Source: Planctomycetota bacterium (lineage in GTDB: Bacteria; Planctomycetota; SZUA-567). Taken from it: 64,000 nucleotides of DNA. Positions 9,421 to 19,366 of the stretch are shown here, piece after piece. The stretch lies in the NCBI GenBank assembly GCA_020060765.1, contig JAGUZQ010000060.1, positions 62,001-126,000 on the forward strand. Direction: 5' to 3'. Position numbers and translations under genes: made by a program. Under the pieces are notes generated by a model, which was not told the DNA's origin, did no database searches, and saw only the letters and a program-made list of their open reading frames with translations. Within the stretch, counting starts at the first letter, position 1; the number at the start of each line of letters is the position of its first letter.

Positions 9421-10176
9421 ATGAGAATTTTGACCAAGGGAAAAAACAGACCGGGGAAACTGGCAGCTTGTTTCGGTTCCGGGATGAAAGTTTTCACTTT
9501 GGTGGAACTGCTGGTGGTAATTGCGATTATCAGTATTCTTGCTGCAATGCTGATGCCTGCCCTGAGTCGAGTATTGGAAATTACCCGGACAACTGCCTGT
9601 GGAAATAATCTGCGCCAGAGCGGACTGACAATGACTATGTACGCCGACGACTACTCGGGATGTATGTTAATCAAAACCTATCAGCCGGTTAAGGGAGAGA
9701 CGACCTGGTGGCAACCATTATTTGACGGGGAATACTGCAGCGATACCAATATATACCTGTGTCCGTTCTGGCCGCCGACGAAGTGCGCGAAATATAACTG
9801 TTACGGAATCCGCCGTTCCCATCCAGCCGGACTGGTTTGCCAAATTTCTCTCGCGTCGCCTTATTATCTTACTTATTTCTGGCCGCATAAGTCGCGGAAG
9901 CCGTCAGATTACCCCATGCTGACTGACACTATCGGCGCCAATCCAGCCGCAACCAGCACTTACAACAAACAGGTTTACGGTTTTTATCTGAGCATGACCG
10001 GCGAGGGCAGGATGCACCAGCGCCACTTGAACAAGGTGCAAGGCTGGTTTCTCGACGGCCATGTCGAAAATATGGACAACAAGCGGTTGGTAGAGGCTTT
10101 CCTGCAGGAAATGCCAGCATCAACCGTGGTTGGGGTCATTACCCCTGAGGGTGATGCGCTGCAGTTAAATCCTTGA
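9421..10176 (+). CDS. Prepilin-like protein
   Basis: A 251-residue pseudopilin-like protein. The leader is 24 residues ([19 protein letters not shown]), followed by [19 protein letters not shown], the class III signal with Glu at +5. The C-terminal signature appears as [21 protein letters not shown]. Val occupies the -1 position. The start chosen is ATG 9421 with GGAGG about ten bases upstream; a second in-frame ATG at 9484 would leave only a three-residue leader. No hydrolase follows on this strand: the next gene converges from the right, so this copy stands apart from the paired arrangement of the other three. Confidence 0.85.
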
Positions 10177-14453: not shown

Positions 14454-15878
14454 TTATTTGTAGCTTTTTTTATCAATGCCGTGTTTTTTCATTTTATCGT
14501 ACGTTGCCCGCGAGGTCATGCCAGCTGTTTTCGAGGCCTGTGCGATTCTGCCGCCGGATTTTTTCAGCAGCGAATCGAAATAGGAGGACTCGAAACGATC
14601 CACGATTTTTTGTTTAACTTCCCGCCACGGCAGGGAAAGCCACGGTTCCGGCAAGGGCGCTTCCCCAGGAGCGGCGCTTACCTGGGAAGATTTGCCCTGC
14701 AACTGCGAGATTTTGGAGATTTCATCCGGCAAGTCGCACAGGCGGATGGTTTGCCCCTCGCACAGCAGCATGGCGCGTTCGATGACGTTTATCAATTCGC
14801 GCACGTTGCCCGGCCAGGGATATTTTTCCAGCGCCGCCAAAGCCTCGTCGCCGATGCTGTCCACCGTCACCCCGATCCGCGGAGCGAGGTAACCGATATA
14901 ACTTTGCACCAGTTCCGGAATATCCTCCCGCCGTTCGCGGAGGGGCGGAATAAGAAGCGTCATCACGCTCAGGCGATAATACAGGTCGCGGCGGAAACGG
15001 TTTTTCTCGATCTCCTCCTGCAGATTGCGGTTGGTGGCGGCCATGATCCTGACGTCAACCTTGATCGTTTTCTCGCCGCCCAGCTTGGCGAATTGCCTGT
15101 CTTGCAGAACCCGCAGCAGCTTGACTTGCAACTGCAAGGGCATGTCGCCGATTTCGTCGAGAAAGACCGTACCCTTGTGGGCGAGTTCAAACGCTCCCCG
15201 CCGTGTGCGGGTGGCACCGGTGAAAGCTCCTTCCTCGTGCCCGAACAGTTCGCTTTCCAGCAGATTGTCCGGCAGCGCCGCGCAGTTGATCGGGATAAAG
15301 GGGCCGCTGGAGCGGTTGCCTTCCGCGTGTATCGCCAGCGCCAGCCGTTCCTTGCCGACGCCGGTCTCGCCCAGGATCAGCAGGGAGGAATCGGTCTTCG
15401 CCATTTTCCCCGCGATATTCATGAACGCCTGCATCGGTTGGCTGTGGGAGACGAAATCGGTCAGGCGAGGTTCCGCCAGTAGTCTGCGTTCGCTCAGAGC
15501 CTCGGGCGGTGTGCCGGTTCTTTTCAGTAGAATGGTTTCGATCGCCTCAATCAGGCTGGTGGAGGACAGGTGATGCGTCAGCACCGCGTCGCAGCCTGCG
15601 GCCAGCAACGCGACCCGGCGCGTTTCGTCTTCCTTGTCTACCAGCAGGAGAATGATGGGCGAATCCGGCAGTTGTGCAACCAGGGGAATGGAAGTTTCCA
15701 GAGGAGACTGCAGCCGGTGTTCGTCTGTGATCAGCAGGTCGCACGGCTCCTTGCGTAGGATCGTCAAGGGGTCGCCACTTTTCAGGACGGAAACTAACAT
15801 GTCCCGCTTGCGCAATGCTCGGGACAGCTCGGTCTGGAGCTTGGCGTTATCCAGAGCGAGTGTGGCGCGGATTAGCAT
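14454..15878 (-). CDS. NtrC-family sigma-54-dependent response regulator
   Basis: A 474-residue transcription activator. The N-terminal 120 residues look like a divergent receiver (CDLLITDEHRL with a candidate phospho-acceptor Asp near 51, then an alpha/beta pattern). A sigma-54 AAA+ domain follows (about 140-370): Walker A LILGETGVGKE, the sigma-54 contact loop GAFTGA at about 216-221, Walker B TVFLDEIGDMPL and the arginine-containing LYYRLSVMTLLIPPLRERREDIP region. The C-terminus is a Fis-type helix-turn-helix (GGRIAQASKTAGMTSRATYDK). It is divergent from the operon at 16121, whose promoter matches sigma-54, so direct control of that operon is a strong inference. A kinase partner is not adjacent. 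Confidence 0.93.
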   Translation of the reverse strand: MLIRATLALDNAKLQTELSRALRKRDMLVSVLKSGDPLTILRKEPCDLLITDEHRLQSPLETSIPLVAQLPDSPIILLLVDKEDETRRVALLAAGCDAVLTHHLSSTSLIEAIETILLKRTGTPPEALSERRLLAEPRLTDFVSHSQPMQAFMNIAGKMAKTDSSLLILGETGVGKERLALAIHAEGNRSSGPFIPINCAALPDNLLESELFGHEEGAFTGATRTRRGAFELAHKGTVFLDEIGDMPLQLQVKLLRVLQDRQFAKLGGEKTIKVDVRIMAATNRNLQEEIEKNRFRRDLYYRLSVMTLLIPPLRERREDIPELVQSYIGYLAPRIGVTVDSIGDEALAALEKYPWPGNVRELINVIERAMLLCEGQTIRLCDLPDEISKISQLQGKSSQVSAAPGEAPLPEPWLSLPWREVKQKIVDRFESSYFDSLLKKSGGRIAQASKTAGMTSRATYDKMKKHGIDKKSYK

Positions 15879-15939
15879 TTTTATATTCTCCGGGTAAGGA
15901 TGCTATCACGATTTCGGAAGTTATAGTTCATGTTTTGCG

Positions 15940-15954
15940 GGAAGTCAAGCTTCC
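15940..15954. promoter_or_regulatory. Candidate activator-binding dyad upstream of the sigma-54 promoter
   Basis: GGAAG (15940-15944) and CTTCC (15950-15954) form a dyad 94 bp upstream of the -24/-12 element at 16048. The distance suits an NtrC-type enhancer site. The dyad is short and could be chance. Confidence 0.35.
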
Positions 15955-16047
15955 TGTTTTTAGCTACGCAATAAATCCGTTAAAAGTTGATTTATGCAAA
16001 ACGCCTGCGTGTAAGGTGATGGAAGAAATGTGGTTTTTCAATTTTAC

Positions 16048-16063
16048 TGGCACGGCGAATGCA
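16048..16063 (+). promoter_or_regulatory. Sigma-54 (-24/-12) promoter
   Basis: TGGCACGGCGAATGCA matches the sigma-54 consensus TGGCAC-N5-TTGCA at all but one position. The invariant GG (16049-16050) and GC (16061-16062) are exactly ten bases apart. Transcription would start near 16074, about 47 bp before the small gene at 16121. A sigma-54 activator gene lies divergently upstream. Confidence 0.75.
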
Positions 16064-16120
16064 CCTATACAAGCTCATGCAGCTGCGGGAGGCTGTTAAA
16101 AGAAAAGGGAGGAAGTTTAG

Positions 16121-16222
16121 ATGACTGACAAGAAGAAGCCGGAAAAAAAAGAAGTCGAAAAGAAAGAACCTGAAAAGAAGTGCGGGTGCAAAAAGGGCGG
16201 ATGCGGCGCTCCCAAGCGCTAA
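16121..16222 (+). CDS. 33-residue Lys-rich, Cys-containing peptide
   Basis: A small open frame with a strong ribosome binding site (AAGGGAGGAAG) and ATG start, ending TAA. Residues 1-20 are almost only Lys, Glu and Pro; residues 21-29 are CGCKKGGCG, giving three cysteines in a CxC-x4-C arrangement suited to metal or redox chemistry. No signal peptide and no family recognised. It is the first gene behind the sigma-54 promoter and is followed 29 bp later by a tiny lipoprotein gene. The ribosome site and promoter argue that it is real. Confidence 0.6.
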   Translation: MTDKKKPEKKEVEKKEPEKKCGCKKGGCGAPKR

Positions 16223-16251
16223 TTCCGTGATTATTTATAAAGGATATAAGA

Positions 16252-16368
16252 ATGAAAAGTTTTATTCTGGTGGCGTTGGCTGCGGTTATTCTCGCCTGTT
16301 CCATTGGGGGAACCGGTTGCGATTATTTTAAGGGGAAATCCGCAGGCGACAATTCGGCAACAAAGTAA
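16252..16368 (+). CDS. 38-residue small lipoprotein
   Basis: A complete small frame with AAGGA upstream of its ATG. The product is a short basic start, a hydrophobic helix (SFILVALAAVILAC) with a lipobox-like Cys16, and a short polar tail containing a second Cys23. This is the layout of entericidin-like or other tiny lipoproteins, but similarity is architectural only. It belongs to the sigma-54-controlled small-gene cluster. Confidence 0.6.
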   Translation: MKSFILVALAAVILACSIGGTGCDYFKGKSAGDNSATK

Positions 16369-16450
16369 AAGAAATTTTGTGAATGGGGTGGCATGTTGCC
16401 ACTGCTTGGTTACGCCGGAGGAGCAGGGAGCGAAATATTAGTGTTCCCGG

Positions 16451-16485
16451 CTCTTGATGGCGTAGGGAGTTTGGGTTATCAAGAG
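16451..16485 (+). promoter_or_regulatory. Inverted repeat overlapping a ribosome binding site
   Basis: CTCTTGAT (16451-16458) pairs perfectly with ATCAAGAG (16478-16485). The right arm runs into the GAGGAGG ribosome site of the gene at 16497, so an RNA hairpin would partly hide it. A second dyad, GTGGCA-TGT-TGCCAC, lies at 16388-16402. Either could control translation of, or read-through into, the next gene. Confidence 0.45.
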
Positions 16486-16496
16486 GAGGATGGGTA

Positions 16497-16838
16497 ATGT
16501 CGAAAGTGATTTGGTTTCTGGCGGTAGTTCTGTTCGCGTCAACCGGCTTTGTCTTCGCGGAAGAGGAAGCTGGCGAATGGGTTGACGGCAAGGTCGTGGT
16601 AGCGAAGGACAAGGACGGCAAGGTCACGGCGATCACGGTAGAGACCGTTGATTTTGACGCGGACGACAAGGAAGTCAAGGTCGTCTACAACGTCGTGCTT
16701 GACGAAAACGGCAACAAGCTCGCCGAACTCAACGGCAAGAACGTGAACGTGCTGTGCAAGCTCGAAAACAAGGGCACCAAGGAAAAGCCCAACTTCGTTA
16801 TTACGGTCAAGAAGTTCGAGGAAGTCAAGGCCGAGTAA
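16497..16838 (+). CDS. Small secreted protein, first member of a paralogous pair
   Basis: A 113-residue protein with a signal peptide (MSKVIWFLAVVLFAS, cleavage near VFA-E at residue 21). The mature part is highly charged (Lys, Asp, Glu) with repeated strand-like segments: GEWVDGKVVVAKDKDGKV, AITVETVDF, KVVYNVVLDENG, LNGKNVNVLCKL and FVITVKKFEEV. The pattern V-x-G-K-V ... DGK ... G-K-x-V-x-V ... [FV]x[VI]xx[FL] recurs in the gene at 16960, suggesting a small beta-barrel (OB-like) fold. Function unknown. The ribosome site GAGGAGG is strong and may be masked by the upstream hairpin. It is 128 bp after the small lipoprotein gene. Confidence 0.78.
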   Translation: MSKVIWFLAVVLFASTGFVFAEEEAGEWVDGKVVVAKDKDGKVTAITVETVDFDADDKEVKVVYNVVLDENGNKLAELNGKNVNVLCKLENKGTKEKPNFVITVKKFEEVKAE

Positions 16839-16884
16839 AATGCGGGCTGAGATACATGCCTGCCGCTGTTCTGAATTTAAACGG

Positions 16885-16925
16885 GAAGGGTCAGGGAAAA
16901 GCTTTTCCGTGACCCTTCTCTTTTT
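16885..16925 (+). terminator. Rho-independent terminator
   Basis: A near-perfect palindrome (16885-16918): GAAGGGTCA pairs with TGACCCTTC and GGAAAA pairs with TTTTCC, with one G-G mismatch. It is followed by TCTTTTT. It ends transcription of the small-protein operon. Confidence 0.8.
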
Positions 16926-16959
16926 GCATATCCGCGTATGCCATTTGGGGAGGATTGCC

Positions 16960-17499
16960 ATGAGAAATATCGCATTGTCAGTTACTGTGTCTGCGTTTGT
17001 CGCTTTCTGCTTAATATCCGGAAATGACGTTCGCGCTGGGGAAGCCGCCTATGTCGGCAAAGTCTCCGCGACCATCAATGATGCGGGCAAGGTAGAAGAG
17101 GTTTCTCTAGCTGCCGAAGACGGCAAGACCTATCGCATCGCTCCCTCGGGCAAGGGTGAGAAACTGGGCAAGGAAGCCAACGGCGAAAACGCCGAAGTCA
17201 AGGGCACTCTCAAGACCAAGAAGGGCAAGGACGGCGACGAGGAATGGCTTAACGTGTCTTCGTTTACTGTCGTATTCAAGGGTGCGGTCGCCGTCGAGAA
17301 GGACGGAAAAAAGATAACCAAGGTCACGCTGGGCGGAGTGGAAGTCAAGATGAGCGCTGTCGCCAAGAAGATGGCGGAAACGGCGGAAGGGAAAAACGTC
17401 ACCGCCACCGGTGCCAAGTCCACCCATAAGTCCGGCAAGGAAGAGGTGGTTGTGCTGACCCTGAAGGAATTCAAGATAGACGGCGAAGAGAAAAAATAA
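16960..17499 (+). CDS. Small secreted protein, two-repeat member of the same family
   Basis: A 179-residue protein. I start it at ATG 16960 behind GGGGAGG; an earlier in-frame codon at 16840 would run through the terminator and lose the signal peptide. The signal peptide ends near VRA-G (residue 26). The mature chain seems to contain two copies of the fold seen in the preceding gene: about 30-102 (YVGKVSATINDAGKVEEVSL ... WLNVSSF) and 105-175 (GAVAVEKDGKKITKVTL ... VVVLTLKEF), each ending in a strand-x-F motif. Function unknown. It lies after the terminator, so it may have its own promoter or rely on read-through. Confidence 0.78.
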   Translation: MRNIALSVTVSAFVAFCLISGNDVRAGEAAYVGKVSATINDAGKVEEVSLAAEDGKTYRIAPSGKGEKLGKEANGENAEVKGTLKTKKGKDGDEEWLNVSSFTVVFKGAVAVEKDGKKITKVTLGGVEVKMSAVAKKMAETAEGKNVTATGAKSTHKSGKEEVVVLTLKEFKIDGEEKK

Positions 17500-17536: not shown

Positions 17537-18439
17537 ATGGATAAGCTTCTGCAGGCCGCCGGCAAGACGGCTCGGGGGTTCGCTTTTATTGTCGGACTCC
17601 TGGCTATTGCCATGATCGGACTGATCGATTATTACACCGGTTACCGGCTGGCACTTTCCACCCTTTACCTGATCCCCATTCTGTTTACCACCTGGCACGC
17701 GGGGCGGGGCGCGGGACTTGCAACAGCCGGACTCGGTTCCCTGGCCTGGGGAACCGCGGAGGCGCTGGGGCGGGAAGAGCCTCTGCCGTTGCACATACTG
17801 GTGTGGAACGTCAGTATGCGCCTGGTTGTTTTTGTTATCGTCACGGTCATGCTTGCCCGTATCCAGGAATCGCTGGAGCATGAAAAAAGCCTGTCGCGCA
17901 CCGACAACCTTACCGGCTTGCTCAATGGTCGAGCCTTTCTGGAGGCGGTCGGACGCGAGGTCGATTTCTGCAGCCGCAATCTTGCGCCTTTTGCCCTGGC
18001 GTATATTGATCTGGACGACTTCAAGCAGATCAACGACCGATTCGGCCACGCCATGGGCGATACGTTGCTGATGCACGTTGCCAGATGCTTTTCCCGCAAC
18101 ATCCGCGGTGCCGACCTTGCTGCCCGCCTGGGAGGGGATGAATTTTCCATCCTGTTGCCGCATACTGGCGGCGACAGCGCTGAGGTAGTAATAAATCGGT
18201 TGCGGGAGGATTTTCTCAAGGAGATGTACAAGAACGACTGGCCGGTTTCTCTCAGCATCGGGCTGGTCTCGTTCGAGCTTCCGCCGCCTTCAGCGCACGA
18301 GGCGGTCAAACTCGCCGACGGGCTGATGTACGAGGTGAAGCGCCAGGGTAAAAATGCGGTCTTGCACCAGCGCGTGAAATCGGCTAAAAAAGAGACCAGC
18401 GGCGAGTCAGAACGCCGCAAGTACTCTGTTGTCGTCTGA
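17537..18439 (+). CDS. Membrane diguanylate cyclase (GGDEF)
   Basis: A 300-residue enzyme predicted to make cyclic di-GMP from GTP. The N-terminal half has about four hydrophobic helices (residues 14-115), forming a small membrane sensor of unknown ligand. The GGDEF domain starts at DNLTGLLNGRAFLEAV (about 130) and contains IDLDDFKQINDRFGHAMGD and an intact RLGGDEF active site near 198. Five residues before it is RGAD, a complete RxxD inhibitory site, so product feedback is expected. The start is ATG with GGGGAG nine bases upstream. It is 37 bp after the secreted two-repeat protein and 15 bp before the ATP-grasp gene. Confidence 0.92.
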   Translation: MDKLLQAAGKTARGFAFIVGLLAIAMIGLIDYYTGYRLALSTLYLIPILFTTWHAGRGAGLATAGLGSLAWGTAEALGREEPLPLHILVWNVSMRLVVFVIVTVMLARIQESLEHEKSLSRTDNLTGLLNGRAFLEAVGREVDFCSRNLAPFALAYIDLDDFKQINDRFGHAMGDTLLMHVARCFSRNIRGADLAARLGGDEFSILLPHTGGDSAEVVINRLREDFLKEMYKNDWPVSLSIGLVSFELPPPSAHEAVKLADGLMYEVKRQGKNAVLHQRVKSAKKETSGESERRKYSVVV

Positions 18440-18454
18440 CCTACGGGACACATC

Positions 18455-19366
18455 ATGCGCGGTTGGATTCTGTACAAGATACCCCGGCAGGAACTGGGAC
18501 CGAACGCTTATGAGATGCGTCGGTTTCTGGAGACCGCCGAGGAACGCGGCATCGACCTCCGCGTCGTCACGCAGGAGCAGGTAGACCTGATCGTCGCCGG
18601 CGACGACCGCAAGAGCGTCCGTCTTGAAGGCGAGATTGTTGCCCTGCCCGATTTCATCCTGCCCCGGCGCGGAGCAGGCACCACTTATTTCTGCCTGGCC
18701 GTGATCCGCCAACTGGAGCGAATGGGCGTCTATTCCGTCAACAGATCCTCCAGCATTGAGATAGTCAAGGACAAGCTGTACACCCAGCAGATTCTCGCCG
18801 AAAGCAAGCTTCCTTTCGCCAAGACCATGCTGGTGCGATTTCCCATCGACGTGCGATTGGTGGAAAGCGTGCTCGGTTTTCCCGTGATCGTCAAAACCGT
18901 TTCCGGTTCGCAGGGCAGGGGGGTGTTCCTGGCCGAGACCCGGCGACAGTTCGAGGATCTCATGCACCTTATCAGCGTCGCGGCCAGCGGCGTGAATGTG
19001 ATCCTGCAGGAATTTATCGAAACCAGTTTCGGTCGCGACCTCCGGGTGATCACCGTCGGTGGAAAAGCTGTCGCCTGTATGCAGCGCACCGCGCCGCCGG
19101 GCGCGTTCAAGGCCAATTACAGCGGCGGGGCCAGCGTCGACGCCCGCGAACTCACGCCGGAAATCCAGCGTCTCTCTACCGAAGCCAGCCGGATTTTCGA
19201 TCTCGACGTCGCGGGGGTGGATTTGCTGTTCGACCGCGAGGGCTTCAAAATCTGCGAGGTCAATTCCAGTCCCGGTTTCGAGGGGATGGAGTCCTGCCAT
19301 CCCGGCCTGAGTATGGCCGATGAGATATACCGTTTTGTCCGAAACAGGTTGAAACTTGAGAGTTGA
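18455..19366 (+). CDS. RimK-like ATP-grasp ligase
   Basis: A 303-residue ATP-dependent carboxylate-amine ligase related to RimK, which adds Glu to a protein or small-molecule acceptor. An N-terminal preATP-grasp domain (1-95, with PDFILPRRGAGTTYF) is followed by the ATP-grasp fold: NRSSSIEIVKDKLYTQQIL, FPVIVKTVSGSQGRGVFL (nucleotide-binding Lys and Gly-rich loop), QEFIETSFGRDLRVITV and the metal-binding end KICEVNSSPGFEGMES. Substrate unknown. It is likely co-transcribed with the diguanylate cyclase; RimK homologues have been linked to cyclic di-GMP signalling in pseudomonads, so the pairing may be functional. A weak palindrome, AAACCACGTGGTTTTTT, follows the stop. Confidence 0.88.
   Translation: MRGWILYKIPRQELGPNAYEMRRFLETAEERGIDLRVVTQEQVDLIVAGDDRKSVRLEGEIVALPDFILPRRGAGTTYFCLAVIRQLERMGVYSVNRSSSIEIVKDKLYTQQILAESKLPFAKTMLVRFPIDVRLVESVLGFPVIVKTVSGSQGRGVFLAETRRQFEDLMHLISVAASGVNVILQEFIETSFGRDLRVITVGGKAVACMQRTAPPGAFKANYSGGASVDARELTPEIQRLSTEASRIFDLDVAGVDLLFDREGFKICEVNSSPGFEGMESCHPGLSMADEIYRFVRNRLKLES

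Follow-up and report, generated by a model that had tools for sequence, protein, structure and literature searches.

A divergent activator and sigma-54 promoter conserved in Planctomycetota, with varied target genes and a probable stress role

Activator, promoter and candidate binding sites

The window (the whole 64,000-nucleotide stretch of DNA analysed here) contains, on the reverse strand at 14454-15878, a gene for a 474-residue sigma-54 activator of the NtrC type with an AAA+ domain. Divergently from it, on the forward strand, a -24/-12 element (16047-16063) is followed by open reading frames for a 33-residue peptide, a 38-residue putative lipoprotein and two small secreted proteins. All of these had been named in an earlier, sequence-only reading of the window, and all were present. 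A plausible ribosome-binding site lies before each of the four frames (16121-16222, 16252-16368, 16497-16838 and 16960-17499).

The activator was assigned from its Pfam match, its clade, its receiver residues and a fold match. PF00158 (Sigma54_activat, AAA+) was matched with an E value of 2.5e-70 and 236 bits against a curated cut-off of 20.2, and the GAFTGA loop was intact at residue 217, as the sequence-only reading had held. This sigma-54 contact loop was found in 31 of 35 aligned sequences, the remaining ones carrying conservative variants. At the C-terminus, which is conserved inside the family, a Fis-type helix-turn-helix (PF02954) was matched below the cut-off (E 0.029). Orthologs were searched in sets of 60, 29 and 392 genomes of Planctomycetota, yielding activators from 28 genera. 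In a tree that included other NtrC-type activators of the phylum, 34 activators formed one clade (support 0.95). The activator-like protein of genome G034 (locus L035) fell outside this clade and was omitted from the family. Two clade members lie 7 kb apart on one contig of G084 (L063, at 6483 and 13791), and only one of the two has a sigma-54 site and a Lys/Pro-rich (K/P-rich) peptide.

The N-terminal domain was modelled as a receiver fold (AF2, mean pLDDT 76), with the orphan regulator HP1043 as its best Foldseek match. In the alignment, 6 of 31 family members have Asp in the phosphoacceptor column, compared with 13 of 13 among other activators; the conserved receiver Lys occurs in none of 34 members but in 12 of 12 others. 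The window activator is among the six that retain the Asp and lacks the Lys. The residues that define the two-component NtrC subgroup (Asp, acidic pair, Lys) were not found as a set in the family. Judged from these residues, the receiver domain is degenerate and probably non-phosphorylated, and a partner kinase is unlikely because the phosphorylation residues are missing.

Activators of the PspF/pspA, ZraR and NorR type are similar in their Sigma54_activat AAA+ domain and GAFTGA loop, and in a divergent -24/-12 promoter preceded by dyads about 100 bp upstream. They differ in having a phosphorylated receiver, a GAF domain or no domain where the window protein has a degenerate receiver, and its targets vary from genome to genome. 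It scored below the NCBIfam equivalog cut-offs for PspF (TIGR02974, 252 against 443.55 bits) and ZraR (NF007689, 257 against 760 bits). With orphan response regulators of the HP1043 type it has in common a receiver fold in which the usual phosphorylation site is missing; HP1043 itself belongs to the OmpR type, whereas the window protein is a sigma-54 activator.

Promoters were sought as TGGCAC-N5-TTGC with invariant GG and GC at -24/-12. The window element, CTGGCACGGCGAATGCA (16047-16063, forward strand), agrees at 13 of 14 positions, departing only in ATGC for TTGC, which bears out the earlier description of it as near-consensus. It is the sole match with at most one mismatch within 64 kb. 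With up to two mismatches, four matches were counted where 3.4 were expected, so the sequence alone is weak evidence for a promoter. Over the whole genome, 16 matches with at most one mismatch were found against 19 for a reversed-pattern control. With no excess over the control, the case for the promoter rests on its position and its conservation in relatives, and no wider sigma-54 regulon could be called from the genome-wide listing of sites. The genome encodes sigma-54 (PF04552, E 1.4e-50), and transcription is predicted to start near 16074.

Conservation was measured in the divergent intergenic regions of the orthologs, using corrected activator starts and control windows from the same loci. 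A site with at least 11 of 14 positions was found in 22 of 34 regions against 5.1% of control windows, and one with at least 12 of 14 in 14 of 34 against 0.45%. The binomial probability for the former is about 1e-20, a value that overstates independence since the orthologs are related. The activator proteins are 42-57% identical, and little intergenic DNA is therefore shared among them. The distance from promoter to activator start was about 113-192 nt in most clade members. In a comparison set of 13 unrelated NtrC-type activators of the phylum, a site with at least 11 of 14 positions was seen once, without the GG core. About a third of the family members have no convincing sigma-54 site. By computation, both activator and promoter are conserved. 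The comparison of the element across relatives that the sequence-only reading had proposed thus came out in its favour, and its suggestion that the activator drives the neighbouring promoter is very probably right, promoter, spacing and divergent layout being conserved across the phylum.

Words of the TCGGA type are enriched beside activator starts; ATCGGA occurred near 14 of 33 starts where 1.8 were expected. The dyad TCGGAR-N7-YTCCGA, whose N7 spacing was picked after scanning ten values, was found at 11 or more of 12 positions in 6 of 34 regions and in 0.5% of controls. Two candidate sites were marked in the window: a half-site, TCGGAAGT (15914-15921), and a dyad, GCGGGAAGTCAAGCTTCCTG (15937-15956), which is the candidate upstream activator site, has only a moderate score and shares GGAAGTCAANNTTCC with the site TCGGAAGTCAATATTCCGT of G180. 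The dyad lies about 90-110 bp upstream of the -24 element, and the two candidates together about 90-135 bp upstream of the promoter, which is the usual distance of activator sites from a sigma-54 promoter.

Peptide, lipoprotein and OB-fold genes behind the promoter

The first gene behind the promoter (16121-16222, forward strand) encodes the 33-residue Lys/Pro/Cys peptide MTDKKKPEKKEVEKKEPEKKCGCKKGGCGAPKR. An ATG-started K/P-rich peptide of 33-55 residues was found behind the promoter position at 10 of 34 ortholog loci and in 14 of 1324 control windows (Fisher, 4e-11). When a ribosome-binding site was required, the counts were 6 of 33 and 3 of 1160. Eight peptides (window, G007, G180, G021, G248, G170, G197 and G156) have the C-terminus (P/T)KR, for which the family was named PKR-tail; the distant peptides of G084 (L063) and of locus L078 end in RKYPRPLH and RKYPRPLR. 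Between the congeners G170 and G197, the codons of the 47-residue peptide differ by seven synonymous changes and no nonsynonymous ones, and there are two in-frame indels of 3 nt. This codon pattern is direct evidence that the peptide family is coding and, as regards the copy in the window, indirect evidence. On computational grounds, the peptide family is real.

Cys is absent from 7 of the 10 located peptides, including those of G021, G248, G170, G197, G156 and G084, and peptides with Cys are confined to the window, G007, G180 and G001. The motifs are CGCKKGGCG (CxCxxxxxC) in the window, CGCGCG in G001 and CGEGC in G007. Sequence comparison thus gives K/P-richness and a C-terminal PKR as the shared features, and Cys content, which the sequence-only reading had put foremost in calling the proteins Cys-rich, is incidental.

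The putative lipoprotein (16252-16368, forward strand) has a lipobox read by eye as ILAC or GTGC. It had no Pfam match and no sequence homolog in G007, G180 or G021. The expectation that the small frames would be conserved in relatives was accordingly borne out for the peptide family (10 of 34 loci) and not for the sequence of this putative lipoprotein. At the distant loci L078 and L075, a short K/P-rich or Pro-rich frame behind the promoter is followed by a small lipoprotein-like frame, in the order seen in the window.

OB-protein 1 (16497-16838, forward strand) is a secreted protein of 113 residues. Its orthologs adjoin the same activator in G007, G180 and G021, the ortholog of G001 has no activator beside it, and further relatives occur elsewhere in the class. 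The AF2 model (mean pLDDT 84) has the order strand-strand-strand-helix-strand-strand, that is, the five strands with a helix between strands 3 and 4 by which an OB fold is recognised. SSB and PriB were its best structural matches, with a Foldseek E value of 5.5e-4, VIA Z scores of up to 8.1 at 3.7-4.3 Å and about 7-20% identity. As modelled, the fold does not imply binding of nucleic acid; the protein carries an apparent signal peptide. It is covered by no family in Pfam or NCBIfam, and the OB profile found no significant sequence match in the PDB. BOF/YgiW proteins (PF04076) are likewise secreted, about 100 residues long and of OB fold, but PF04076 was unmatched by the window protein and 12 relatives, and the nearest scored folds were those of SSB and PriB.

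The second secreted protein (16960-17499, forward strand; 179 residues) has two OB-like repeats and is a paralog of the first, whose domain it contains (OB profile, E 8e-10). Its ortholog in G007 lies at the same place with 45% identity. A start at 16840 was rejected, since the frame would run through the terminator-like hairpin described below; 16960 was preferred because it has its own ribosome-binding site and agrees with the G007 ortholog. Both proteins, which the sequence-only reading had left without a recognisable family, are now placed by profile, AF2 model, Foldseek and VIA in a new OB-fold family, the fold itself being a modelled one. A secreted protein behind a sigma-54 site at L070 (G063), OB-like by position, was not counted, G063 being absent from the OB profile matches.

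The two OB genes are separated by a strong intrinsic-terminator-like hairpin (16883-16920, forward strand; -27.5 kcal/mol, z -5.0) with a U-rich tract behind it, and a hairpin was also seen by eye at the same place in G007. A single four-gene operon was rejected, the hairpin separating the second secreted gene from the rest. From this arrangement, the unit under the sigma-54 promoter likely consists of the peptide, the putative lipoprotein and OB-protein 1; OB-protein 2 probably begins a second unit or is reached by read-through. A membrane GGDEF protein (17537-18439, forward strand; PF00990, E 3.6e-36) begins 38 nt downstream of OB-protein 2 and is probably co-transcribed with it. A RimK-type ATP-grasp ligase (18455-19366, forward strand; PF08443, E 1.8e-39; TIGR00768 over cut-off) follows, and a homolog comes after the peptide and OB gene in G001 (L008:6458-7375), where both are present and the activator is absent. 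The GGDEF protein and the ligase are counted only as candidate members of the module; given their close spacing, they and OB-protein 2 probably form the second or read-through unit. An Rfam search of the window at the gathering threshold gave no match. Elsewhere in the window, 9421-10176 encodes a prepilin-like protein, with a terminus of a type common in Planctomycetota and Lentisphaerota.

Targets facing orthologous activators

The peptide and OB genes face the activator in the window, G007, G180 and G021. Behind the promoter position of other orthologs, or next in line, CsbD was found (E 1.8e-23), and the targets also included DUF1328 (E 2.6e-15), PRC-barrel and weakly Hsp20-like proteins, an MscS/MscK-type channel and small lipoproteins. 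CsbD, DUF1328 and MscS channels thus occupy in relatives a place in which they are absent in the window. From knowledge of the families, we take most ortholog targets to be stress or osmotic proteins. In G017 and G337 the activators face genes with no obvious tie to stress. Both loci (L033:1297-4597 and L064:4096-7516, respectively) carry a radical-SAM lysine 2,3-aminomutase-like protein followed by two D-Ala-D-Ala-ligase-like ATP-grasp genes, with an additional GNAT-like gene in G337; they are possibly a beta-lysine-based osmolyte or peptide pathway.

In G385, the gene that comes first behind the promoter (L065:3163-5517) codes for a 784-residue secreted protein with collagen-like GDKGATGDKG repeats. 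In a Victivallales MAG (L092:3298-5677), a relative of the activator faces a PLP-dependent decarboxylase-like gene, followed by a 62-residue peptide composed almost wholly of Asp, Glu and Phe and by a secreted protein; this locus has a weak sigma-54 element. In an independent promoter survey of Planctomycetia, sigma-54 control was enriched for MscS channels and chaperones (PMC12316311). In R. baltica, rpoN was down-regulated, not induced, under high salinity (PMC2754498).

Proposed mechanism and alternatives

The observations are combined in a model of a self-contained sigma-54 stress switch with exchangeable targets, which we favour with some reserve. The activator would bind dyads in the divergent intergenic region, at about 15914-15956, and remodel sigma-54 polymerase at 16047-16063. 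Transcription would begin near 16074, take in the genes for the PKR-tail peptide, the putative lipoprotein and OB-protein 1, and end mostly at the hairpin, with read-through into OB-protein 2 possible. Since the phosphorylation residues have been lost from the receiver domain, control without a kinase is probable; activity would be set instead by binding of a ligand or protein, or by the amount of activator. Across the phylum, switch and promoter would be kept and the target genes would change, being mostly small envelope, osmotic or general-stress proteins. We infer the binding of the activator, its phosphorylation-independent activity and the stress signal from these features, and the most likely role is that of a sigma-54 switch that serves in osmotic or envelope stress and does not depend on phosphorylation. 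The sequence-only reading had proposed one envelope response module. The stress-type genes that face orthologous activators make an envelope response plausible; judged from the sequence, the four genes do not form a single transcription unit, given the hairpin between them.

The activator might instead work mainly elsewhere in the genome, the divergent element driving the small genes incidentally or being a chance match. This would fit the genome-wide count, which is not above the reversed-pattern control, but it is very improbable given that the element keeps its position in 22 of 34 orthologs despite unrelated downstream genes and is nearly absent at other NtrC-type activators (1 of 13). A metal- or thiol-stress module has also been considered, in which the CGCKKGGCG peptide would bind metal in the manner of a metallothionein and the regulator would be a metal-responsive, ZraR-like activator. 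The Cys motifs in the window, G001 and G007 speak for it, as does the proposal of ZraR-type activators for Planctomycetota (PMC12316311). The metallothionein reading of the peptide was nevertheless rejected, since Cys is not conserved across relatives, six of which (listed above) have peptides free of it; no metallothionein family was matched in Pfam or NCBIfam, the receiver lacks the phosphorylation residues and the ZraR model was missed by a wide score difference, so that the module as a whole is improbable.

Less remote, and still unlikely, is that the short K/P-rich frame is a regulatory leader peptide without a job of its own, ribosome stalling or attenuation at its Lys- and Pro-rich codons controlling the OB and lipoprotein genes downstream. 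The frame is nearly always the first behind the promoter, is very rich in such codons, and varies in sequence while keeping its composition. Conservation of the C-terminus, as (P/T)KR in eight peptides and RKYPRPL in two, argues against this reading, as do the in-frame indels within the repeat region of the G170/G197 pair; moreover, no conserved leader/terminator pair was seen, and the downstream genes vary among loci. The PKR-tail peptides may be a family of stress-induced micro-proteins that is ancient, spans the phylum and keeps a C-terminal signature. They would then act as free peptides, cationic and disordered, which the kinase-independent sigma-54 switch produces in bulk when needed while its other targets are swapped between lineages, a proposal that we place somewhat on the doubtful side.

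Activators encoded next to a divergent sigma-54 promoter are of an already known kind. In the literature searched, no account was found of the clade with degenerate receivers, of its exchange of targets or of the PKR-tail peptides; an early in-silico study of Pirellula activators (Studholme and Dixon 2004, as cited in PMC2754498) may mention a member. Sigma-54 control in Planctomycetota is little known, and a conserved activator-promoter pair with exchangeable targets would offer a regulon that can be tested directly, in a phylum whose envelopes are unusual. The locus also exposes tiny genes missed by annotation, among them a peptide family that is recognisable only by its place behind the promoter, its composition and its C-terminus.
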